From: Isoetes taiwanensis | Taxonomy: Eukaryota > Streptophyta > Lycopodiopsida > Isoetales > Isoetaceae | NCBI GenBank assembly: GCA_021234155.1 | Contig: JAJEKV010000164.1 | Coordinates: 62,001-126,000, forward strand | Length of the DNA stretch: 64,000 bases | Reading direction: 5' to 3' | Shown: piece after piece, positions 8,299 to 45,690 of the stretch | Numbering within the stretch: position 1 is the first letter of the stretch | Layout of the letters: each line of letters begins with the position of its first letter | Translations under genes and position numbers: made by a program | Notes under the pieces: model-generated | The model's input: the letters and a program-made list of their open reading frames with translations, nothing else | Database searches by the model: none | Told to the model about the DNA's origin: nothing

Positions 8299-9243
8299 AA
8301 TGTTTAACTCTACCTTCAAAGTGTTAACAAGTGAATGAAAGCTGAGAAAGATGTTTCTATGGCTCAGACATGTTTCTATGACGCATGACAAAATTCCAAC
8401 AGCAGCGGTCTACCCAATTCGCAGACAGCGTGCAGGATCCACACACCAAAGCAAACCCGTCAAGCAACTACTTGCAATAAGATTGCACGTAGCCCTGCAA
8501 CACTGCAATTTCCAGATCCTCTTCAAAGCCCCGCATGCCCATTTAGTGACTTATGGGAGTAGAAGCAAACCGTTTCAAGCAACATTACACATTTGTTGCC
8601 CTAGATGTAACAACGAATTTGGTGTTCTGTTAATTGCCAAATTCGTATGTGGTAAACGTCAAATGCCAAACGTGGTAAACGCAAAACTTAGAAAAGGCAA
8701 GAAGAATGTTTTTGAGAAACGTCCTTTTAGACCTTTTGCCTAGCTTTAAAAAACAACCTACAATGACTTATAAAAAGTGACGTGTAGAAAAAGCAAAGAA
8801 AAAAATCCTACCCGTTTTCTCTTTTCGAAGGTGACCTTTTCAAAAAATAGCCTTTTAGGCCTTTTGCGTGGCTTAATAAATAGCCTCTAGCATATCTCTT
8901 TGCACATAATTGCCTAGCTTTGAAAACGGCCTAGGATGATCTATAGAAAATGACAGAGAAAAAACAAAAGAAAACATCCTACCCTGTCTCTCTTTTTCAA
9001 AAGTGACCTTTTTTTAGGAATCGCCTTTTAGATTTTTTGCGTAATGACATATAGAAATAGCAAAGAGAAAAGATTCTAACCTTTTTCTCTTTTTCAAAGG
9101 TGACCTTTTTCAGAAATAGCAAAGAGAAAAGATTCTAACCTTTTTCTCTTTTTCAAAGGTGACCTTTTTCAGAAATAGCTTTTTAGACCTTTTGTGTAGC
9201 TTAATAAATAGCCTCTAGCATATCTCTTTGCGCATAATAAGTG
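8299..9243 (+). repeat. Helitron 5' region with tandem and dispersed AT-rich repeats
   Basis: Blocks of the type TAGCCTTTTAGGCC...TTAATAAATAGCCTCTAGCATATCTCTTTG occur at about 8848-8912 and 9175-9240. A ~58 bp unit (AGAAATAGCAAAGAGAAAAG) is repeated in tandem between about 9048 and 9170. The 3' copy runs directly up to the Rep start codon, so these repeats probably belong to the element's promoter region. A 130-codon frame at 8351-8743 has no recognisable domain. The Helitron's 5' TC end was not located. Confidence 0.5.
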
Positions 9244-11386
9244 ATGAATAACGAACAAGAACGAAGGCTTGCAGCAAAGAGAGATAGGTATAGAAAGAAG
9301 CGTGCTGCAGAGACAGCTCAAGAACGTGAAATTCGTTTGGAGAAACAAAGAGAGAATTACAAAAGAAGAAAGTTGCAACATGCTACTCTAGAAACAGAGG
9401 AACATCGTTTGCGAAGAATGGCAGTAAATGCACAACAAAGACGTGATGAAAGACGCCAAATAGCCACCACAGAAACTGAAGAGCAAAATCGGCAAAGATT
9501 GGCCGAACTTGCCCGACATCGACGCGAGAAGCGAGCTCGCGATGCTGCAACAGAAACAGAAGAGGAGCAACAACAAAGATTGGATGAAGTTGCACAATAT
9601 CAACGTCAATTGAGGGCCCACCCTTCTACATACAGAATAGCAAGGACTATTGAAAACACACAGATCGAACGACACCATTGTGGGCCATTCAACAGGGAAT
9701 GCATGCATTGTGGGGCATTGGCATTCAAGGATGATGGTACAAATTGTTGTCATGATGGGCAAATCAAGTTGGAGCCTCTACAACCAATGCCCCATCTCAT
9801 TCAGATGTTACTACGCCGCCAACACTCAAAAGCCAATAATTTCTACCAGTACATTAGGACCTACAATAGTGCACTAGCCTTTGCTTCCTTTGGCGCACAT
9901 ATCGAGCAGTTTGAAGGCCACGGCCCGTACTGTTTCAAGATCCAAGGGCAAACTTATCATAGAGTAGGGCCAGCTTATGCTGATGATTCTCAAGCTGCAA
10001 CGTACTCCCAGCTTTATATTCTGGATGCCGACTGCGCCCATGAAACACGAGCTCAGAACCCCCAGAATGCAAATTGTGATAGCCACCTCCTCAAAGAACT
10101 AGATGTTGAGCTGCGCAACGTCAACCCCTATGCATCAGCTCTTATGATGATGCATGAGGTAGAACATCAGGCACAACGTTCGGGCGAAGGTGTAATGGAT
10201 ATTAGGATGTACTTTAACACTGACCGGAGCCTGGACCATAGGAGGTACAACCCATCATACTCAAACGAAGTAGCAGTCATATTTGTAAACCCAGATGGGG
10301 AACCGCCATTTGATAGAGACGTCTGCATACACCAAAAGGGTGGCGGTCTCAAGAAGATCCAAATCACAGACCCAAATCTTGATCCCTTGGTTTATCCCTG
10401 ATCAGGGCTGGAGAATAGAAATGAAGAAGGCAGAAACATCTTTTGGTTCAACATCTTCAAAGAAGCAGGAGAATATAAGTATGCTTCAATTCTACAATTA
10501 TCGGCTGGCAATAAGAGGCCCAACTTGCAATCCACTGCTTTGTGCAGGCAAGCTAACGCAACAATTCATTGTTGATATCTACTCGAGAGTGGAGGCAAAC
10601 AATTTAAACTGGATCGAGCAAAACCAAAGGAAGCTGCGAGTTGAGCTGTATCAAGGCCTCATCGACTACATAGACCATGAAGCAGAGCGAAGAGGCTTAA
10701 GATCTGGCAAGCTGGTCATCCTGCCTTCTTCGTTCAATGGGAGCCCAAGAGCAATGCAACAAAACTACCAGGACTCAATGGCCTTGATACGAAGATTTGG
10801 CAAAGCAGACCTTTTTGTGACATTTACCTGCAACCCAAATTGGATAGAGATTAGACACAACCTGCTCCATGGACAACAACCACATGATAGGCCCGACTTG
10901 ATTGCATGCATATATCACACAAAGCTCAAGGCATTCTTCCACGACCTCTTTGATAACGATATCTTGGGCAAGGTGAAGGCGCACACGTACACGATACAGT
11001 TTCAGAAGCGAGGGCTTCCACATTGTCACCTCCTCATGATTCTCGAGCAAGAAGACAAAATTCGGGATAGCGATGCCATTGACAGCATCACGAGTGCTGA
11101 GGTGCCAAGTCTAGAAAACCCTGATCTACGAGAGATTGTCATTAAGCATATGGTCCATGGACCATGTGGCCCACTCAACCCTAAAGCTCCTTGCATGGAA
11201 GCCAAGGAAGGAAGCTCGACAAAGGAATGCACAAAGGGATTTCCAAAACCATTTAATGAGCACACTAGAGTCAACACAAATGGCTATCCAGAGTACAGAA
11301 GACGAGACACAGGCCACTTTATGAGGGGTGACACGCCTATTGACAATAGGTGGATAGTACCCCACAATCGAAATTCTACAGGATGA
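9244..11386 (+). pseudogene. Helitron Rep (HUH endonuclease) gene, frameshifted and lacking the helicase
   Basis: The first part (ATG 9244 to 10,401) has an arginine/lysine-rich N-terminal region, coiled and with repeated TETEE segments, then the start of the Helitron_like_N domain. A frameshift near 10,393 moves the rest into another frame, which continues to 11,386. That second part holds the Rep core with ADLFVTFTCNPNW and the HUH motif in QKRGLPHCHLLMIL (about 11,003-11,044). The tyrosine motif and the SF1 helicase that normally follow are missing; the frame ends and the 3' terminus comes only 175 bp later. The protein would nick and join single-stranded DNA in rolling-circle transposition. 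This copy is internally deleted and non-autonomous. Confidence 0.85.
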
Positions 11387-13630: not shown

Positions 13631-14653
13631 TATGGCCAGCCGATTGGCATTGACATATCTTAATAGTGCTGAAGTATTTGATGGAGATATTGGCTTTCAA
13701 CTTTGGAAGGCCAAGATCACGCAGGCCCTTAAAGTTGACAAACTGTGGGATTTGGTTGATCCAGCCAGAGTAAGGGAATCTGAGGTGAAAGTGGAAGCAT
13801 CAGCATCTGAGGAGACTAAGGGAGATCAAATTTCGGATGACAAAAGGGAAGAGATTGCCAAAGCTCTAATCATGGCAAAACTAGGAGGTGATATTGTGCT
13901 TGAAATTCAACACAAGCCGGCCAGAGAAATATGGAAGTATCTTTTGAAAAGATATGAGGAGTAGACGTCGACGCAGATTGACATCCTGGAAATGAAATTG
14001 CGCAACCTGCAATTCAAAAAAGGTGATGATTTGAGAGTTTTGATACGAAATCTTAGATTGTTGTTGCATGATTTGGAAGGAGCTGGAGCGCATTACGGTG
14101 AGCAACAAAAGGTAATGGCCCTAACCAGAGCGTTTCAAATTTTGTTTAAAGATCTTGCTATATTAGTCAGAAGGACAACATCCACTCTGGATGAAACAAT
14201 AGAAGCAATTAGGACAGAGCTTGAACAAGAGGTTTTGGTAAAACCAATATCAGTGGAGGCAGAGGAACACCCTGCAACCTTGTATGCAGGAGAACCAAGT
14301 GGAGAGAGGCCGAGGCTGCGGCAGGGGCAGAGGAAGTTGGAAGGCGGAGATACAGTGCTACGGATGTGAAGAATTTGAGCACATCAAAGCAGAATGTCCG
14401 AATCGAGGGAAGTGGAACCGAGGACGTGGTCGTAGCTCATTTGGTCGTGGAAGGGGACGAACTGTGGTAGCGGCAGTTGGAGAGACGTCTGAGATGAAAG
14501 CGCCAACCGTGGGAGTTCTTACAGAAGAGGAAGTAAGTACTTGCGAATCCTTTTCTAAAACTAAGCATTACATCTCAAAAGTTAACGTTGAGAAGAAAAT
14601 TTTGGACAAAACTAATACCTTGACTGTAGATTCTGGAGAGCTGAAGTCTCTAT
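13631..14653 (+). pseudogene. Copia element 1 gag and protease start
   Basis: The gag starts at ATG 13,631, 11 bp after the primer site, with the UBN2-type gag pattern FDGDIGFQLWKAKI and a later WKYLLKRYEE. A stop interrupts it at 13,964 and a frameshift follows near 14,290. It then continues with an Arg/Gly-rich stretch and a CCHC knuckle (CYGCEEFEHIKAEC, about 14,359-14,400). The protease active site appears as VDSGE near 14,630. Gag forms the particle; the protease would cut the polyprotein. The breaks make it non-functional. Confidence 0.8.
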
Positions 14654-14654
14654 A

Positions 14655-15685
14655 GTGAGCTCGCCTGATATGTTGAAATGTATTGAGACAAGTATGGATT
14701 GCAAAGCTGTTCAGATGGGCAATGGAGCAATGCAGAGGGTGCTTGGAAAAGGAAATTTGCATATTCTAGTTAAAGGCAAGAATGTTTTGAGTTTACCAGA
14801 TATATTGTTTGTGCTAGGAATGCTTTTTAATTTAATTTCTGTTGCCAATTTAGTATATAATGGGTATGATTTATTTTTTCATAAGTATGGGTGTAAATTT
14901 ATTAGAGGAGGTATTAAATTATTTGAGGCTCAAAGAAGAGGAAATCTGTTTGAATTGGACGTCAATGATACCGTCAATAAGGTATCTCCCCTCGATAGTA
15001 TAAGGCTTTGGCATTTGAGGTTAGCACATGTCAACTATAACAACATTAAAATAGCAAAAAGGCACAATCTTTTGGATGAGCTTGACTACGAGGATAGTGA
15101 GATTGATGATGTGTGTAAAGCTTGCATGTTAGGAAAGCAAAACAGAGTGGCATTTAGAAAGGAAGAAGGGCGCATAAGTTGCTTGAACTGGTGCATTTGG
15201 ATGTTTGTGGACCCATGCAAGTTGAGAGTAGAAGAGCAAAATCTTACTTTGCTACTTTTATTGATGATTACATTAGACGTACTAAATGTTACTTTTTGAG
15301 AACCAAGGATCAAGTATTTGATGTATTTAGGTTATGTACTGCAGAAGTTGAAAGGGAGACATCACTAAAAATTAAATGTCTAAGGTCTGACCTTGGTGGA
15401 GAATATAGATCATCTGAGTTTTGTAGGTACTATCAAGAACGAGGGATATGGAGGCAGTATACATACAGATATACACCGCAACAAAATGGAGTAGCAGAAC
15501 GCAAAAATTTCACCATCATGGATGCAGCTAGATCTATGCTCAAGCATGCAGGTTTGCCGAACAATTTATGGGGAGAGGCGTCACGGTACTATATATTCGT
15601 AATAGGTTACCAACAATTCTTTCGTGAAAGGTGGAGTACCAGAAGAGTATTGGATGGGGAGAAAACAATCTGTGAGACGATTTAG
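14655..15685 (+). pseudogene. Copia element 1 integrase region
   Basis: The zinc-binding pre-integrase domain is visible as LWHLRLAHVN...CKACMLGKQ (H-x-H then C-x2-C; about 15,007-15,140). A frameshift near 15,180 leads to the catalytic core with the D-D-E triad in HLDVCGPM, LRSDLGGEY and PQQNGVAERKN. A second break follows near 15,685. The order protease, integrase, then reverse transcriptase is diagnostic of copia rather than gypsy elements. Confidence 0.85.
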
Positions 15686-15767
15686 AGTCTATGGATGCCT
15701 TGCTTATATGGTGGTACTGGAAGAGTTAAGGAGAAAACTGGATGACTGAAGCATATGTACTTTTCTG

Positions 15768-16250
15768 GTGGGTTACGATGAGCAGACAAATGGTTACAGA
15801 TTATATGAACCAGTCACACGTAAGGTATATGTTAGTAGGGATGTGTTTAATGAAAATGTGTTACATAAGAACAGGAAAGGTCTGAGTCAGCATGAAGCAA
15901 ATAAATGGATACCAGCAGAATATTTGAAGAATGATCAAGCAGATAATGAGGAAGAGACGAAGACCACAATTCTAAAGGGCGATGAAAACTATTTAGAATC
16001 AGAAAGTGACGAGGATGTAGAGACCAATGCTGCAGCTGAGGAAGCAGACACGAAACTGGATGAGGTGTATGAGGTCATAGAGGCCGATAGTGCACCTCAT
16101 GAACCGGAAACAAAGCCAGAGGAGGTGTGTCATGAACCAGAAACTGAGCCCAGAGGAGGTGCATGAGGTTGTTGACACCAATAGTGCACTCGAAGCTGGA
16201 CCTCAAGAGGCAGGAGGTAGTAGGAGAACTTGACGCAGCGATGCAAAACG
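15768..16250 (+). pseudogene. Copia element 1 integrase tail / linker with acidic repeats
   Basis: The segment starts with the usual post-integrase motif (GYDEQTNGYRLYEP...VYVSRDVFNE) and then becomes Glu-rich with a repeated HEPETKPEEV-like unit. It links integrase and reverse transcriptase in the polyprotein. The frame ends at 16,166 and the sequence to 16,250 is shifted. Confidence 0.65.
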
Positions 16251-16335
16251 TCTAAAGGCTGAGGTTCCATTTGATGCAAGATTATATGGTAGGGAAGAAA
16301 GTGGCAAGACAACTAGACCAAGGAAACCTAACATT

Positions 16336-17700
16336 TTGTATTGTATAGTGGAGCCAGAAACGGTGGAACAAGCCTTGGAAGGGAAGAATGCAGAACGTTG
16401 GAAAGAGCCCATGCAGAATGAACTGGATTCATTTAGAAGGACATGCACTTATGAACTCGTATCGCGACCAAAGGATAAGAATGTTGTGGGAAGCAAGTGG
16501 ATTTTTAAAATTAAAAGAAAAGTAGATGGATCGATAGAACGATATAAGGCAAGGCTGGTTGCGAAGGTGTATACTTAAGAAGAAGGTGTGGATTATAAGG
16601 ATACCTTCTCACCTATAGTCAAAGTGACTAGCCTAAGGACACTCCTTGTGGTTGCAGTGCAGAATGACATGGAGATGAACTATATGGATGTCAAGACCGC
16701 ATTCTTGAATGGAGATTTAGACGACGAAATTTACATGGAGCAGCCGCAGGGCTATGAACAAAGTCAGAACATGGTGTGCAAATTAAAAAAGGCAGTTTAC
16801 GGACTTAGGCAAGCGGCCGTGCATGAACAGATTCCTGATTTCTGCAAGATTTACAAAATTAAAAACTGAATGGAAGTTCGAAGGGACAGAAAGCAAGGAT
16901 TACTTTACCTTACATAGGAACAAAATATTAAAGGGGTATTGGCTAGGTTCAGGATGCTCGAGTGTAACCCAACGAAAACGCCTATGGCCTCAGGAATACA
17001 AATATGCGGAAACATGTGTCCCGTGACACTAAAAGAAGCCAAGGAAATGAAAGCCAGGCCTTACAGATCATTGATTAGTTGCTTGTTATACATTGCGAAC
17101 TGCACTCGACCAGACATTATGTATGCAGTCAATTTGCTTAGTAGATTTTGCAATAATCCTGGAATACAGCATTGGATAGCAGCGAAAAGAGTTCTCAGGT
17201 ATTTAAAGGGGGCAGAAACACATGGAGTTTGTTTTTCAAAGGGAAGAGAGAACAAATTAATTGGTTATGCAGACGCGGATTGGGGAGGAGATATTGATGA
17301 CAGAAAATCCATATCCGGGTTATCTCAGGCAAACTTCGGGGATGCAAAGAATATCATGGGCAAGTAAAAAAACAAGAATGCGTCCGCTAAATCTAGTCGC
17401 ACGCCAGAGTATGTAGCAATATCCATGGCCGCTTGGAAATAATCTAGTTCGCGTAGAATGCCCGAGGAATTAGGGAATCGTCAAAGCCGAGCTACCGTGT
17501 TATACTGCGATAATAAGAGCGGGGTAGCAATGACCAACAATCCAATCCATCATTCCCGAACCAAGCACATTGATGTACATCATCACTTCATACGAGATGG
17601 TGGAAAAGGGGGAGATAAACGTAATGCATATTCCCACCAAACTGCAGCAGGCGGATATGCTAACAAAGGCCCTTTCTGAGTCTAAACTGGTGGCAGCAAA
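16336..17700 (+). pseudogene. Copia element 1 reverse transcriptase and RNase H
   Basis: RT starts with the conserved WKEPMQNELDS and VGSKWIFKIK, has an in-frame stop at about 16,576, and continues through MDVKTAFLNGDLDDEIYMEQ and LKKAVYGLRQA. The segment that should hold the catalytic YVDD box is deleted between about 16,815 and 16,940. RNase H follows with TRPDIMYAVNLLSRF, YADADWGGD and, after another shift, [15 protein letters not shown] and [14 protein letters not shown]. The loss of the catalytic box makes the element non-autonomous. Confidence 0.85.
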
Positions 17701-17744
17701 AAATTTAGTTGGAGTCATTTACTATAAAGGCTAAAGGGGGAGTT

Positions 17745-17812
17745 TGTTGGTATTAGCCTTTATTCTAGAAAGCCCAAAACTGTGTAAAGCCCAAAAGCCG
17801 TGTGTAACGTAC
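17745..17812 (+). repeat. Copia element 1, 3' LTR, first part
   Basis: 68 bp matching the start of the 5' LTR, directly after the polypurine tract. Similarity ends at GTAACGTAC; the 5' LTR goes on with ACATGGGC but here the foldback begins. Confidence 0.85.
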
Positions 17813-17960
17813 TAGGGTAACATTTTTGGGACAAAATTCCCCCTTTATCTGGTAAATCGCTCCCGGCATTCCCCCTTTATCCGGCTAAACTGCGATCGGC
17901 GGTAGCCAGGAGCGGTTTACCAGATAAAGGGGGAATTTTGGACCAAAAATATTACCCTAA
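17813..17960. repeat. 148 bp foldback (MITE-like) at the left end of the 19 kb insert
   Basis: The arms 17,813-17,863 and 17,909-17,960 are inverted repeats of about 51 bp with only a few mismatches (TAGGGTAACATTTTTGGG against TTAGGGTAATATTTTTGG in reverse complement). The loop carries a further copy of the motif ATTCCCCCTTTAT. It could be a MITE inserted at TA, or the terminal structure of the larger insert. Confidence 0.75.
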
Positions 17961-18038
17961 TAATATAATAGTTGGGGAAAATTTTTTAGTTCATTTTCCC
18001 TGTTGCGTTTTCACTCTGGCGCCAGCATTCTCGGCAGC

Positions 18039-19382
18039 TATGGCACGTCGCAAGCGTCGTGAGCAGCTTGATTTCCGTCGTTCAAAGGCACGATCTTCTC
18101 CAAGAACAGGTTTTAGAGCTATAAATTCGACATCTGAGGGTAATGGTAATCGATTGATGCAAGATGCTGTAATGGAAAGCCAGAAGCCTGTTCCTGGCGA
18201 CTTTTTCAAGCAAGAAGGTTCTGCATTTTTCCAAAACATAATTCTTTCATGTTTTTTTGTTTCTGATGCTAAGTTTTCACTTTTTTTTTATGCAAGATGT
18301 TGTAATGGAATGCAAGATGCCTGATCCTGACAACTTTTTCAAGCAAGAAGGTTCTACATTTTCCTAGAACATAAATCTTTCATGTTTTTTTGTTTCTGAT
18401 ACTAAGTTTTCACTTTTTTTTTTTTTTTTTTGTAGTTTTGCTATCTGGAGTGGATGATGGGGTTAAAAACAATGCCATAAAAGATCCTTCCGAAGTTCTT
18501 GCTGAATCCACTGATTCTTTACTGGAAAATTCTACTGATGCAGAAAGATCTTATGCATGTAGGTTTTTCTAATTCTATCATTCTGCATCTTGTCTTAGAT
18601 CCTTGCAATTCTAATATTTTGTAGATAGCACAAATAGCATATAGGTTCTTATAATCTGTTAGATCCTTGCAATTCTAATATTCTGTAGATAGCACAAATA
18701 GCATACCGATATGTATCATGATATCATTTTTGTAAAGGCTCGTAAGGCACTTGAGGTAGCGATCCAGGATTCAGCAGCTTCTGGTACCATCAAGAAGAGA
18801 AAGAAGAGTGAGATTATTAGTCGGGCAGATCATAACCTTGTCTTGGGGCATCCAATGCATCAGGATACTTCAGCTACTGGCTTGCAAAACAGGTTTGCCT
18901 TTTATTGTATGACTAGGTTTTTGGTTCGTGGTGGTAAGGAGTTAGCAAATCTTAGAGATTTCATGTTTAGCACTGGAAGTGATTTTGTAAGAGAATATCT
19001 TGAATACTGTGAGACCACCAGCAAGAACTGGAAGGTTACTCTTAGCAAGTACAAGACGCAAGATTTTCGCGAGCCTGTCAGATGTTACGAAGAAGACGTT
19101 ATTAAGACGTGGAAGGAGCTTGTATTTCATCTTCCAGATTATGAATTTAAGGACGACATTGGTGGCAGGTAACATTTTCCCTTTAATTATTAAGCATGTT
19201 TAAAGCTTTTCTGTAGTGTAACAGCAGCTATATTTTCTGTAACAGGTACATTTTCCTTCAAGCTATCAACAACCCAAAATTCGAGGTCTAGTTTAATAGA
19301 AATCATGTTGCTGTGGGCACTATCTCTACCTGGTTGAAAGATATGGTGAAGTGTTATGGGATTGAGGGCTATTACACATCCA
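18039..19382 (+). pseudogene. Tyrosine-recombinase-like gene (DUF3504/Crypton type), multi-exon, truncated
   Basis: Exon 1 starts at ATG 18,039 with a basic region (MARRKRREQLDFRRSKARSS). A later exon follows TTTTTGTAG at about 18,435 and ends GCAT|GTAGG. The main exon, from about 18,735 to 19,169, contains ATGLQNRFAFYCM, then LVRGGKELANLRD and EYLEYCETTSKNW. This is the pattern of the DUF3504/ZMYM/QRICH1 tyrosine recombinase fold, where the Arg of RGG-x-EL is the first catalytic arginine. After a short intron (19,170-19,233) comes FNRNHVAVGTISTWLKDM...GIEGYYTS, the segment that normally leads into the NHS-x-R-x-T catalytic box. A TAG stands where Trp is usual. The gene breaks off right before the box, at the Harbinger element. 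Upstream exons contain tandem duplications. Confidence 0.6.
18160..18412 (+). repeat. Tandem duplication of about 120-130 bp
   Basis: 18,160-18,284 and 18,294-18,412 are near copies (both with GACTTTTTCAAGCAAGAAGG or a one-base variant and CATGTTTTTTTGTTTCTGAT). The duplication copies an exon end with its donor site in the recombinase-like gene. A second, ~62 bp tandem duplication lies at about 18,597-18,706. Confidence 0.75.
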
Positions 19383-19492
19383 CCCAATTGTTACATTCGA
19401 AAACCATCCACCCAATTGTTACAGATCTTTTTCTCACGATTCTCCTTTTCTTTTCTATCTCTTTTCTTGCGTAAATTTTTCTTCTCTTCAAC

Positions 19493-20609
19493 CATGGATT
19501 TGAATTCCATTCCTGAAGATGCATATGAGGAGGCTGAAATTGAGATTGTTCCTTCCACTCAACGACGAGTGTGAAGACGAAGATGATTCTAGCCAACCCA
19601 ATGCCAGCCGGAAGAGGGTTCTATGGCCAGAAGCTGCTATTAAAATGCTGGTGGAGCAGTATTCTGATATCAAAGTCAATAAGCTTCAAATGGGTAACTT
19701 CAGGAGCAAGGATTATGCTGCAATAGCTTTGCGGTTGAATGAGACCATTAGCACCAGATACACTGGCAAGCAAGTGAAGAACAAGGTGGAATGTCTCGTG
19801 AAGAAATATAAAAAAGAGAAAGAAAAAGAATCTAGGACTGGCTCCACTCCAAGCGAGTGGGAATTCTTTGAGCAATTTGATGATGTCCTTGGCGAATCGT
19901 CAAAGGTAGTTGGTCTACCGGGTGGATCAACGGAGACTGGGTTTAGGAGTGGCACCAAGCGAAAAGCGGACGATATGAATCCTAAGGTCGCAAAAGGTAT
20001 TGCCAAAACCAAGAAATTTTCTCGTCCCATTTCCGTTGCTAATTCTCAGGCCCCAGTGCCTGAGTATGTCGTGGTACAACCACAAACATCCAAGTCAACC
20101 CCTGTTTATGTAGATGATTGCGAGGAGGATGATGATGAAGAAGCAGGCATTGAGGTAGACTCTCCTCCTGCGAAGCAACCTGTCCGCAAGCCTCTTGGCA
20201 AGGAGCAGAAACGAAGTGCATCTAGTCTTCGTGGAAAGAAGACGAAGGCCAGGCGCCACGAAGAGGGCACCAAGGCATCTGCCACCATCTTGGCTCAAGC
20301 CATGAAAGATGTCACTAAACGTCCATCAGGAATTGAAGTTGATGGAACTTGGCGCAAATGGAGGGCGAGGATAGACGGCGAGAGGCACGTAGAGAATCTG
20401 AGGTTCGAAGGGAGGAAGCTATTAGACGAAGAGAATTGTTAGAACTTGAGGCGTCCAAACGGAAGGAGGAACTTCAGTTGCAACTATCACAATTAAAGAT
20501 GCAGCTTCAGATTCAACTGCATGGTCGGGGCAGCAATTCTGGGATGCAAGCACTACTCCATCCTCCAACATGGACAATGCCTTCTTCAATGGTGGATCAA
20601 GCTCCTTGA
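19493..20609 (+). pseudogene. Harbinger Myb/SANT-like DNA-binding protein, frameshifted
   Basis: The start at ATG 19,493 gives MDLNSIPEDAYEEAE. A frameshift near 19,560 leads to an acidic stretch and then the trihelix/SANT-like domain, with RVLWPEAAIKMLVEQY, the usual NFRSKDYAAIALRLNE helix and TGKQVKNKVECLVKKYKKEK. A proline/charged linker follows. A second frameshift near 20,380 leads into a long charged coiled coil (20,390-20,530) and a stop at 20,609. In PIF/Harbinger elements this protein binds the ends and carries the transposase into the nucleus. It faces the transposase gene tail to tail. Confidence 0.75.
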
Positions 20610-20842
20610 GCGATTTATTTGATGTATAAGTTATGCTCTTAGATTAAATTGTCATGTTTGGATTGAAGTTTGTTCTATGTAGTAGAAGTCATGGAATCAA
20701 TATGAAATTTTCTATGGTTTTTTAATATATGTATTTAACTCATGTTAGACATGCAATCTAAGAATTATAAAACGAGACTTGCACTATTATGAATTCAAAA
20801 AAACACACATGGTTCACATAAATTCAATACAAACATACAAGT

Positions 20843-22093
20843 TTAAATCAGATTCTGAGCTTGCATATGATTGAAAACAGTGTCCCTCAGCAGTTTTCCA
20901 TCTCTTCTTCGCGCCGTATCTCCTTGATTAAGTGGTAACCCTCCATACAAAACCACACGTGTATAAAAGTATTCATCCTCATTTTCAATTTGTAGCATGT
21001 TGTGAAGAACACAAGCAGCAATAACTACCTTAGGCGCATGAGGCACTTTGATTGGCATGTCGCATAAGATGTTCCAGCGACCCTTCAGTAGAGCAAAGCA
21101 ATTCTCTATCACTACCCTAGCTTGTGACAAGTGTTTGGAGAATCGAATAGCATCTGCAGGATCACTAAGTCTTTTCTTCTTGATCACCATCATATACTCT
21201 GATGCAGGATATCCAGAATCTGCAATTAAATAGGGTTGCACTCTTCTATCATGCAACACTCTTGAAGGTCCGCGTAAAATATGCCTTCTTGACAACTTGG
21301 CAAATAACGGGGATTTATAAAAATGATTTGTGTCATGTGCACCACTGGGAGCATCACAGCAGACGTCCCAAAATATTAGTGAAGGATCACAGACAGCTTG
21401 CAGCACAATGGAGAAAAAATGATGTCTACTCCAATAATCTGCTGGTCCCATTTCCTTATTGGTGCTTTTTTGAAGGGAATGTGAGTGCCATCAATTGCAC
21501 CAGCAATCTGTGGCACACCTGATATGGATTCAAAATCATTTATAATGTTCTGTAGTCTATTCCCAGATGGAGCCCTAATGAAATCATGCCTAAGTTTCTC
21601 TGCTAATATATTGACAACAATTTTGGTATACTTATGCATTGTACTTGCTCCCATCCCATACATTTCTGCGCAAATGAAACCCTTCTCGTTATGGGCCAAT
21701 TTGAAAATTACAACTGCTAGGGCCTTTACTTTTTCAATAGGTTCACGGACCACAATAGATAGATCAGCCTGTATAATATTGTATAATATGTGGCACTACT
21801 AGCCTAAGCAACTTCTCAAAATTATCTGGATGCATTCTGTAAAAGTTCCTGAAATTATGCTCACCAGCTATACCAGAGTGGAGCCAAAGATTATTACTTA
21901 AATTTGCCCAAAAAGATATATGTCTTGGGTACATCCACCATATTCTACGCTTCTGGAGCTTCTCATTGATCAACAGCAGCATAAACATAACACATATTTG
22001 CATCAACATGTCAATTAGCTCCTCCAAACCTGTGTTCAGATTGTCGATTTCAAGATCGCTGTCACTCATTAGCTCCTCATCATACCCTTCCAT
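20843..22093 (-). pseudogene. PIF/Harbinger DDE transposase (DDE_Tnp_4), frameshifted
   Basis: Read on the minus strand from ATG 22,093. The N-terminal part has an acidic start and FRMHPDNFEKLLRLV-like helix (FYRMHPDNFEKLL). A break near 21,780 leads to the helix-turn-helix region (MGASTMHKYTKIVVNIL) and the first catalytic Asp in AGAIDGTHIPFKKAP. A frameshift near 21,420 leads to GAHDTNHFYKSPLF, the second Asp in YLIADSGYP, and the Glu in ARVVIENCFALLKGRW. It ends at 20,843. All three acidic residues are present, but at least two frameshifts make this copy inactive. Confidence 0.85.
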
Positions 22094-22613
22094 ATTTGTG
22101 AAACTATGACAGAAATTAAAACAGAAAATAGTTTACAGTGATTGACAAGAGCTTTATGAAATTATTTCTGGTCTATACTAGTCTGTGAACAGTCAAGAAT
22201 TCGGAAATGGACTGCTTGGATGGGAAAAAAGTACCTGATAAGGTCGGAGTTGATGCTGTTGTTGTTCAATGGGAGCCTGGAACCCGCGCTGTGGCCGCTG
22301 CTGCAAGAAGTTTTGAAGGCGTCATGTGAATGCGCTGGCAGCCAGCTGTCCTGCCATGATTTCCGGCACCGCCAAAAAAGCATGATTTCATTAATTGGAT
22401 AAAATAACGCAATTTTGAGAATTTTCAGCACACCTTATTTGCTCAAGCACGAATACTTTCACCTAGTTCTCGAGCCCAACAAACATGAGGTAATTAACAT
22501 ACACATATACATACAAATTTTGTGTTATACTTGTACGTGTACATGACACTCGTAGAAGGTCAATAATGGCCCTACATTGTACACCAATAATTCACATCAA
22601 TAATTTTACTTCA

Positions 22614-43794: not shown

Positions 43795-44222
43795 GACCTC
43801 AGATCAGACAAGGTTACCCATTGAGTTTAAGCATATCATTAAGCGGAGGAAAAGAAACCAACATGGATTTCCCTAGTAACAGCGAGCAAACTGGAAGGTG
43901 CCCAGATTGAGAATTGTGGCATTTTTGCATTGCGAAATGTAGTATGTAGAAGCGTCCTCTGTGGCAGACTGGGTCAAGATTCCCTGGAAGTGGACGCTTG
44001 AGGGGGTGAGAGCCCCATCAGGCCCGGGCCCTGTTGCTCCACGAGGCGCTCTCCATGAGTCGGGCTGTTTGGGAATGCAGCCTTAAGTGGGTGATAAATT
44101 CCATCCAAGGCTAAATATTGGCAAGAGACCAATAACAAACAAGTACCGCGAGGAAAAGATGAAAAGGACTTTGAAAAGAGAGTTAAGAAGTGCTTGAAGT
44201 TGCTGGGAGGAAAGCGAATGGA
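43795..44222 (+). pseudogene. 5' end of 25S rRNA, decayed fragment
   Basis: It opens with GACCTCAGATCAGACAAGG, the conserved start of plant 25S rRNA, and continues through TTTAAGCATATCATTAAGCG, AACAGCGAGC, CGAGGCGCTC, GGGAATGCAGCC and CAAGTACCGCGAGGAAAAGA. Differences from the conserved sequence are mostly C-to-T or G-to-A (for example CCATTGAG where CCGCTGAA is usual), as expected for methylated, unselected DNA. It stops at about 44,222 within the first ~430 bp of 25S. It is a dispersed, inactive rDNA piece. Confidence 0.85.
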
Positions 44223-45690
44223 GGTTCTTCTATGTTGCACCCAACAGTAGGTACAAAGCAGCATAAGTCGGCGGATGAATCTGGATTGCAAATACTGAAC
44301 TTGAATCTTGCCTTCCAGATTTAATAAAATCGCGAAGAGAAATCTTGGAGATATGAAATTGAGGGCGTAAAAAAGCCTGTACAGAAGTAGGAGCAGGAGC
44401 AGAAGCAACTGGAACAGAAACTGAAGCAAAAACTGGAGCTGGGACATCATCTAGAGCATGGTTGGAATCTGGGATATGAACTGGAGCAGACACATGAGCC
44501 GAATCAGGACGTGGAGCAGAAACAGGAACAACAAGGACGGAATCAGGAGCCCACGATATTGCACGGATTGAAGTAGATATTGGTGCAGAGGCCTGAACTG
44601 CAGATGAACTGGAACTAGAGTTAGCACCAGAAAACTGAAAAAATCTAGTATGCCAATCAATCTGTGGGTTGTGTAGCTCAAGCTAGGGCAGATCCAAGAC
44701 TACTGGCGCATGTGGGCAACGATGAGATTGAAGGAAATGCTACAAGAAGCTCCCTCGAACAAAACCAAAAGAGGTGCAGTATATTCTGTGACTGCGCCCG
44801 AGGAGATCTCATGTGCATCAATCACATCGACAGAACTGGGATGCTCAACCTTGGTTGTAGGGATGGTGTGCTTAGTGGCAAATGCACTATATGTCTATCT
44901 GTCTTGTGCTAGTGTTGCTCGATAATAGCAGGCAACACTCCCATGTCCTCGCTTGCACGTGCACTCGTTGAATGATGAGTAGTGCTAATAGCCCTGCAGA
45001 TTTGGCAGCATGCGCTCAGCATGGCAGCTGGCAACAAAGATGCATAGAACAGCCACCAAAAGCAAGATCTACTCTTGTTTTTGGGATTAGATCTTTAGGA
45101 GCACCATGATCCATAAGGAGTAGGTATGTCATGAGACCAATCCATCTGATGAAACTAGAGAACATAGTACCTGAATGGAAGAATTAGCAGTAGAAAAACT
45201 TTGGAACAAAACATAATTTAGCTCAAAGGAAACGTTGGTGTGTATAGCAGACAGAGCTAAAGAAAGCCTACGCCATATAAGGCTCGGGCTATAGATGGAT
45301 TGATGCCCAAAGTGACATAATGCCAAAATAGATGTCCCTTTCCCTAGAATGATGGTTTTCTTCTATATAAAAAGAGAACCATGGCATTATAAATCCAACA
45401 GATTTCAAGGTGTAAAGCATGTACTAATTAAATCAATACTTGCAAGTTGCAATATTTGACATGGATATCAACTTTAGGGGACAACCATTTTGGCTATATA
45501 TGTGACAACCATTTAGGGTATAAGTAGGAGTTAAATTTGAAAATAGGTTAATCATGTGACGGTAATGACAACCTTTTCACGTATTTCTATGCCAAGCTCA
45601 TAGATCTTATATAGGAAAACATCTTAAGAAAGACTTATGTTTTATCTTTTAACTAAAGGATTTGACATAAATTATATTTTGGAGATATTA
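44223..45690. other. Non-coding stretch with degenerate purine hexamer repeats
   Basis: From about 44,390 to 44,640 the plus strand is built from GGAGCAGAAGCA/GGAACAGAAACT-like units, opening long but low-complexity frames on the minus strand (Ala/Pro/Val and Leu-rich). No protein is supported. 44,640-45,690 shows nothing recognisable. Confidence 0.4.

Follow-up and report, generated by a model that had tools for sequence, protein, structure and literature searches.

The DIRS and Ngaro retrotransposons carry complementary terminal and internal sequences, and Helitrons possess a hairpin near one end and generate no long target duplication. For Cryptons (CryptonF, S, A and I), a circular intermediate is proposed in the available part of PMC3212892 (Kojima and Jurka, 2011). 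A figure legend in that text also places the green alga Chlamydomonas reinhardtii under 'Plants', with no statement there of whether a Crypton or another tyrosine-recombinase (YR) element is meant. PMC11630846 mentions Cryptons in general terms only, and the ALOG paper, in its accessible portion, concerns DIRS-type elements. Among the matches listed from the literature on Cryptons and YR transposons, with subscription journals and Repbase outside the scope, no land-plant Crypton was found, and the genome papers for Isoetes taiwanensis (PMC8566536) and I. sinensis contain no occurrence of 'crypton'. Likewise, none of the matches listed from the Crypton, YR-transposon and integron attC literature showed a structural att site in a YR transposon of a eukaryote.

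The locus described here lies in a 64,000-nucleotide stretch of the I. taiwanensis genome, referred to below as the window. Positions 17808-19378 are a decayed copy, now a pseudogene, of a Crypton-like YR DNA transposon. This feature is probably a dead member of a large DNA-only family that encodes a Crypton-like YR, carries a structured attachment site and circularises; it is very likely that the family consists of YR DNA transposons that are mobile and insert at TGT. In the literature searched, YR DNA transposons are apparently unrecorded in land plants, yet the left ends found here number in the hundreds. The novelty of land-plant YR DNA transposons is regarded as provisional.

The window copy and its surroundings

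The element begins at a left junction reading CGT-A (17808-17811, forward strand; consensus TGT-A), which was placed by comparing 43 left ends and lies upstream of position 18039, where the original prediction had the feature start. It opens with a terminal hairpin (17810-17962, forward strand) whose 58-nt arms occupy 17810-17867 and 17905-17962, as identified by a repeat search, its fold and its alignment row; the centre of this hairpin holds extra sequence between the arms. The inner-left 16-mer, TAATATAATAGTTGGG (17961-17976, forward strand), is recognised by its right-end counterpart in intact relatives, the window copy having lost its own right end. At the same place, L001 and L002 carry CAATATAATAGTTGGG, the exact complement of their right ends.

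A probable first exon beginning MARRKRREQLDF spans 18040-18218 on the forward strand, with an approximate 3' boundary, and is placed by an open frame (17821-18324) and DNA homology to L001. A 133-nt tandem duplication is present at 18154-18419. The recombinase exon (18738-19168, forward strand) is supported by an open frame, tblastn, the alignment and the L001 comparison. Its 5' boundary is undefined because the upstream part has been deleted: 836 bp of L001, including the N-terminal exon, are absent from the window copy at about 18706. A predicted GT...AG intron (19169-19245, forward strand), drawn from the window sequence and the frames of relatives (L003, L005 and L006 have no intron at this place), separates this exon from the next (19246-19378, forward strand), which is identified from L001 and contains an in-frame TAG at 19289-19291.

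Homology to L001 stops at window position 19378, ahead of the K-x-x-R...H...Y residues. The 3' half is replaced by unrelated sequence (19379-22132, no strand assigned, right limit approximate), as delimited by Pfam matches and co-linearity with L012. Within it, Pfam identifies a Myb/SANT open reading frame (19504-20442, forward strand) and a PIF/Harbinger-like DDE_Tnp_4 frame (20843-21490, reverse strand). A weak HTH_Tnp_4 match, also PIF/Harbinger-like, lies at 21376-21795 on the reverse strand (E 0.0078), and a 19-nt direct repeat occurs at 19377 and 19405, near the truncation point. Since L012 is co-linear with window positions 15851-21851 at 92%, the truncated copy probably arose when a larger stretch containing it was duplicated, rather than by transposing itself.

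Other repeats surround the element. A decayed copia-type retrotransposon lies directly upstream (14000-17770, forward strand), with rve and RVT_2 matches just under the cut-off. A Helitron is represented by a Helitron_like_N match (10295-11386, forward strand; E 3.8e-59) overlapping the open reading frame 9241-10401, and a fragment of eukaryotic LSU rRNA (model positions 24-664) occurs at 43817-44346 on the forward strand. An LTR or DIRS retroelement was ruled out as an identity for the YR element, as the whole elements L003 and L006 contain no reverse transcriptase and the copia-type fragment is a neighbour. An RNA known to Rfam was also ruled out, as the Rfam search of the window returns the LSU rRNA fragment only.

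Recombinase relatives and catalytic residues

The original prediction described a gene with introns encoding a Crypton-like tyrosine recombinase, on the basis of a series of motifs. These are present in the order described: TGLQNR, RGGKELANLRD and YLEYCETTSKNW lie in the open frame 18702-19172, followed by VGTISTWLKDM and GIEGYYTS in the frame 19292-19474. The first catalytic Arg is likewise present (codon 18927-18929). Chance resemblance does not account for the pattern, as a tblastn search of the I. taiwanensis genome with window positions 18738-19169 yielded 1,243 first-look candidates, of which all 150 that were scored matched (E <= 2.4e-22), several with open frames of 300-455 amino acids. 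The same 150 matches rule out a single domesticated gene. Bacterial or viral contamination is ruled out by the GT-AG intron and the multi-megabase scaffolds; one scan of viral contigs, which detects close relatives only, found none.

For further analysis, 32 loci of a few kb each were fetched around recombinase matches, the last two being L071 and L072. The window exon is 96% identical to L001 and 57-68% identical to the long open copies elsewhere in the genome. Searched alone against Pfam, it matches neither DUF3504 nor an integrase or other YR family and gives only MIF4G at E 0.095, so its assignment as a recombinase is owed to the relatives. L003 matches PF00589 (Phage_integrase) at E 1.8e-7 and 31.5 bits, above the gathering cut-off of 27.1, as does L062 at 28.8 bits; in all, 13 of 17 aligned members match this profile at E <= 0.05. 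DUF3504 was matched by three of the 17, below its cut-off (best E 0.0016), and DUF4227 by one. Two other decayed loci, L071 and L072, do pass the DUF3504 cut-off. The expectation of a DUF3504 or integrase profile thus holds for integrase in the relatives and fails for the window exon alone, with DUF3504 staying under its cut-off in the aligned members. L071 (C31:90502) and L072 (C606:42685) resemble the transposon family only distantly, at 49% and 29% over single stretches, and possibly represent a third YR lineage.

The conserved blocks of the protein alignment are RG(G), SKN, KS(C/G)R and GH(K/R), with YD in clade 1. R105, K231 and R234 are nearly invariant, and GH and YD are present in the clade 1 rows that reach them; the catalytic H is Q in L008, L068 and L009. 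All 16 aligned rows that reach the box of the first H carry K in its place, a substitution known in other YRs. The K of SKN is taken by us to be the catalytic lysine. The relatives therefore display the catalytic-domain profile and the R...(H/K)xxR...H/W...Y series that define a tyrosine recombinase, and the window copy ends after the first R. The prediction that the gene is cut before the next catalytic box is borne out, with the correction that this box is K-x-x-R in the relatives and not H-x-x-R. Two outcomes had been named as counting against the prediction, the lack of any recombinase profile match and relatives devoid of catalytic residues. Neither was found, since R, KxxR, Y and H (replaced by Q in three rows) are all retained among the relatives, apart from the change of H to K.

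The YR looks to be under selection between subfamilies, judging by codon comparisons. Six of 36 pairs, those with dS > 1 that give a number, have dN/dS of 0.07-0.11, five of them with dS > 2 and hence rough; the pair L006/L007 gives 0.11 at dS 1.03. Four close pairs give 0.51-0.73, and dS is saturated in 26 of the 36. The 18 other frames of at least 75 amino acids in the whole elements L003 and L006 gave no Pfam match (E <= 0.05), the N-terminal exon gave no informative Pfam match, PDB sequence searches matched no solved structure, and an NCBIfam search returned nothing informative. A second recombinase clade (L008, L009, L067, L068 and L069) is 32-41% identical to L003, and a search of the genome with the L067 protein gave 2,221 first-look candidates, of which 135 were scored.

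Element ends, target site and terminal hairpin

Comparison of L001 with L002, and of L003 with L004, gives sharp element ends. The 11 two-ended elements, which are those whose ends had been recognised by eye beforehand, measure 1,967-4,151 bp, nested inserts included. Among the 32 recombinase loci, the left end is of clade 1 type in 13 and of clade 2 type in five; no left hairpin was recognised in the other 14, partly because the fetched stretch may end short of it. No inverted repeat was found at the two termini themselves in the two-ended elements. The clade 1 right ends inspected, for example those of L001, L003 and L006, have in common a CACGTG-type motif about 40-70 bases before the end, and L067 and L069 show one close to their 3' part; it is perhaps an accessory binding site.

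In complete copies, the left end is a hairpin of about 115 nt with arms of about 50 bp. A genome search with its 17-base apex motif, allowing at most one mismatch, gave 635 matches vs 1 in the reversed control, and 40 of these left ends were fetched. Automatic selection retained 33 of 48 left ends; eight of the 15 skipped, together with L004 and the window copy, were added with hand-set boundaries to give a set of 43, and seven were omitted as truncated, shifted or decayed (L015, L017, L019, L031, L032, L036 and L046). The junction reads TGTA in 39 of the 43, CGTA in two (the window copy and L006), TATA in one and AGTA in one. The 12-mers preceding it comprise 41 different sequences, with A or T immediately before the junction in 40 of 43. 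At the right, T is next in 15 of the 18 ends found. Deviant right ends include TGG (L054), TTT (L060) and TGC (L064).

Searches with joined flanks recovered empty sites for seven of the 11 elements (L001, L002, L003, L004, L056, L059 and L066); for the other four, none was present among the candidates scored, namely the 40 best out of 182 and the 40 best out of 1,024. Of 20 aligned empty sites, 14 carry a single TGT and six a single TAT, whereas the occupied site carries two triplets. Nothing else is gained or lost directly at the junction in 19 of the 20, and L088 has small indels beside it. L059 has TAT at both of its empty sites, and L066 has TAT on its left, yet TGT is found at each of the four empty sites of L066.

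The inner-left 16-mer is an exact complement of the element's own right end (16/16) in nine of the 11 two-ended elements, with 15 matches in L004 and 14 in L058. The right ends fall into six distinct types, and a 16-mer compared with the other types averages 12.0 matches; in L008 and L068 the inner-left sequence resembles the inverted right end by eye. Because these 16 bases inside the hairpin complement the right end, a single long hairpin is predicted for a head-to-tail junction. With RNA parameters, the predicted junctions of five copies each form such a hairpin; at the crossover (TGTAT), four of them show a 2-nt bulge and L059 has four bases opposite two.

Head-to-tail junctions are also found in the genome, where the corresponding pattern has 40 matches vs 0 in the control. 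In 12 selected loci with 13 matches inspected by eye, seven are right end/TGT/left end junctions (L093 twice, L094, L095, L096, L097 and L103) and six are not. The two junctions of L093 are 678 bp apart. Folded with RNA parameters, both of these and that of L095 have a 2-nt bulge, and that of L096 a single base. Such tandems are equally compatible with a circle and with insertion at the terminal TGT of a neighbouring element.

The covariation analysis was performed on 20 of the 43 left ends, no two of which share 88% identity or more; that of the window copy is included. They were aligned with MAFFT without fitting to a structure, and a 45-pair structure was drawn by hand after the folds had been seen. 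In this structure 91.3% of cells are paired and both sides have changed in 31 of the 45 pairs. The covariation score is 0.439, compared with 0.127 (sd 0.011) after shuffling, with none of 500 shuffles as high; slid versions of the structure reach at most 0.142, a control in which the drawn structure is favoured because it was made after viewing the folds. RNAalifold, applied to the left ends, gives 27 pairs with compensatory changes in 16. As single-stranded DNA, the window hairpin folds at -52.5 kcal/mol (z -11.0, none of 200 shuffles as good) and that of L006 at -57.2 kcal/mol (z -12.0).

The hairpin apex consists of a 5-bp stem with a GNNA loop. Of the 20 left ends, 19 retain an inner GA/GA loop; the left half of this loop lies inside the apex search motif, and as 14 of the 20 were fetched by that motif, apex conservation is partly ascertainment. 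The motif does not cover the outer GA/GA loop, which 13 of the 20 preserve exactly. The clade 2 members L008, L009, L067, L068 and L069 have hairpins of their own, and the fold of L068 has two 2x2 GA/GA loops and a GTTA apex. The inverted repeat of L070 looks different, and those of L071 and L072 are weak. Four of the 11 two-ended elements (L054, L055, L056 and L058) have shortened hairpins of about 35-72 nt that lack the conserved apex. L056 nevertheless accounts for five of the aligned empty sites, so the hairpin centre was either lost after insertion or is not needed.

These features can be accommodated in a single scheme. One multi-exon gene would encode the Crypton-like recombinase, which would join both ends of the element into a circle at their shared TGT. 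The circle would then recombine with a new target that contains TGT, so that the inserted element is flanked by TGT on either side; we infer both the circle and this direction of the reaction. The long, structurally conserved hairpin at the element start suggests that the enzyme may recognise folded DNA. If so, the attachment site would be read, at least partly, via its folded form, comprising the left hairpin, the fixed GA/GA internal loops and the GNNA apex. On circularisation the right end would pair with the sequence just inside the hairpin, which would thereby be extended into a single long one in which bases at the crossover stay unpaired. That folded DNA, formed in vivo, is the recombinase substrate is proposed tentatively.

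The same ends might instead constitute a conventional double-stranded attachment site, in which recombinase monomers bind the arms as inverted sites, folding is irrelevant and the arms of each subfamily match since one protein binds both. We regard this as somewhat unlikely, though it has several points in its favour. Known YR sites, as given in the available part of PMC3212892, have two inverted arms of 11-13 bp around a core of 6-8 bp, and the complementary inner-left and right ends fit this scheme. Inverted repeats also arise as double-stranded binding sites, and the hairpins of four two-ended elements are short and lack the apex. However, the arms of complete copies are about 50 bp and covary along most of their length, and the 5-bp apex stem and GNNA loop leave little room for a core. 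GA opposite GA is kept at two places, in L068 as well, which double-stranded repeats do not need. These kept mismatches also bear on a functionless origin, in which arm complementarity is maintained by template switching or gene conversion within the hairpin. Long palindromes can be corrected in this way, but the process would erase the GA/GA mismatches retained in 19 of 20 (inner) and 13 of 20 (outer) left ends and in L068, and would not match a distant right end to the inner-left sequence; it is an improbable account.

About equally improbable is that the hairpin acts in RNA, within the 5' untranslated part of the recombinase transcript, where it would control translation or give rise to small RNAs and would have no part in recombination. 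Its position upstream of the gene in sense orientation and its stable fold with RNA parameters agree with such a role. RNA helices usually tolerate G-U pairs, but these make up just 28 of about 790 paired cells; moreover, the hairpin abuts the insertion point and pairing extends across the predicted junction into the right end. It is very improbable that a DDE transposase acting in trans moves the elements, with a 3-bp TGT target duplication and the YR gene as a passenger. PIF/Harbinger elements do make 3-bp target duplications, a PIF/Harbinger-like transposase frame is present in the window, and, when occupied and empty sites are compared, duplication of 3 bp gives the same picture as a shared core of that length. 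Against this, the two termini themselves have no inverted repeat, no non-recombinase frame of L003 or L006 matches Pfam, and the YR looks selected between subfamilies. Compensatory change is the usual evidence of structure-based recognition and is observed here in eukaryotic transposon ends. Whether a eukaryotic YR uses folded DNA is directly testable here, given the many subfamilies, the long open frames and the defined empty sites.

Comparison with known systems

The Isoetes elements resemble Cryptons, as described in the accessible part of PMC3212892, in being DNA-only and a few kb long and in having a YR gene with kinship to Phage_integrase and to DUF3504, the latter here by matches below the cut-off in the aligned members. 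A scan of the L003 and L006 frames of at least 75 amino acids likewise found a YR gene and no reverse transcriptase. They share with the fungal and oomycete Cryptons of that text short direct repeats at the ends, but these are the 3-bp TGT here compared with 4-6 bp in Cryptons. The long hairpin at one terminus and the complementarity between inner-left sequence and right end are features that the available text does not describe for Cryptons. They also differ from known Cryptons in that K replaces the H of HxxR and in that the host is a vascular plant. The original assignment to a Crypton-like tyrosine recombinase is sustained through the relatives, which exceed the PF00589 cut-off and carry R...KxxR...H...Y; strict membership in Cryptons is not confirmed, and the ends differ from those described.

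The elements have a tyrosine recombinase in common with the DIRS and Ngaro YR retrotransposons and differ from them in the lack of a reverse transcriptase in the L003 and L006 frames and in a length of 2.0-4.2 kb. From Helitrons they are distinguished by their YR gene, by the position of the hairpin at the very left end and by the absence of HUH or helicase matches in L003 and L006.

The integron attC/IntI system, as presented in the available text of PMC2727003, likewise combines a tyrosine recombinase with sites that have little conserved sequence, a conserved hairpin and unpaired bases. A folded form with unpaired bases despite divergent sequence is also predicted by modelling for the Isoetes ends, in shortened form in 4 of 11 elements. 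The likeness to the single-strand recombination of integrons is one of predicted folds and covariation. Integrons are, in the same text, bacterial platforms for gene capture, whereas the Isoetes mobile unit contains its own recombinase gene, the protein of which is of the Crypton type. It is possible, if still short of probable, that these elements represent an integron-like system in a vascular plant, in which a eukaryotic YR recognises a folded single-strand hairpin that is completed when the ends meet and inserts the element at TGT.
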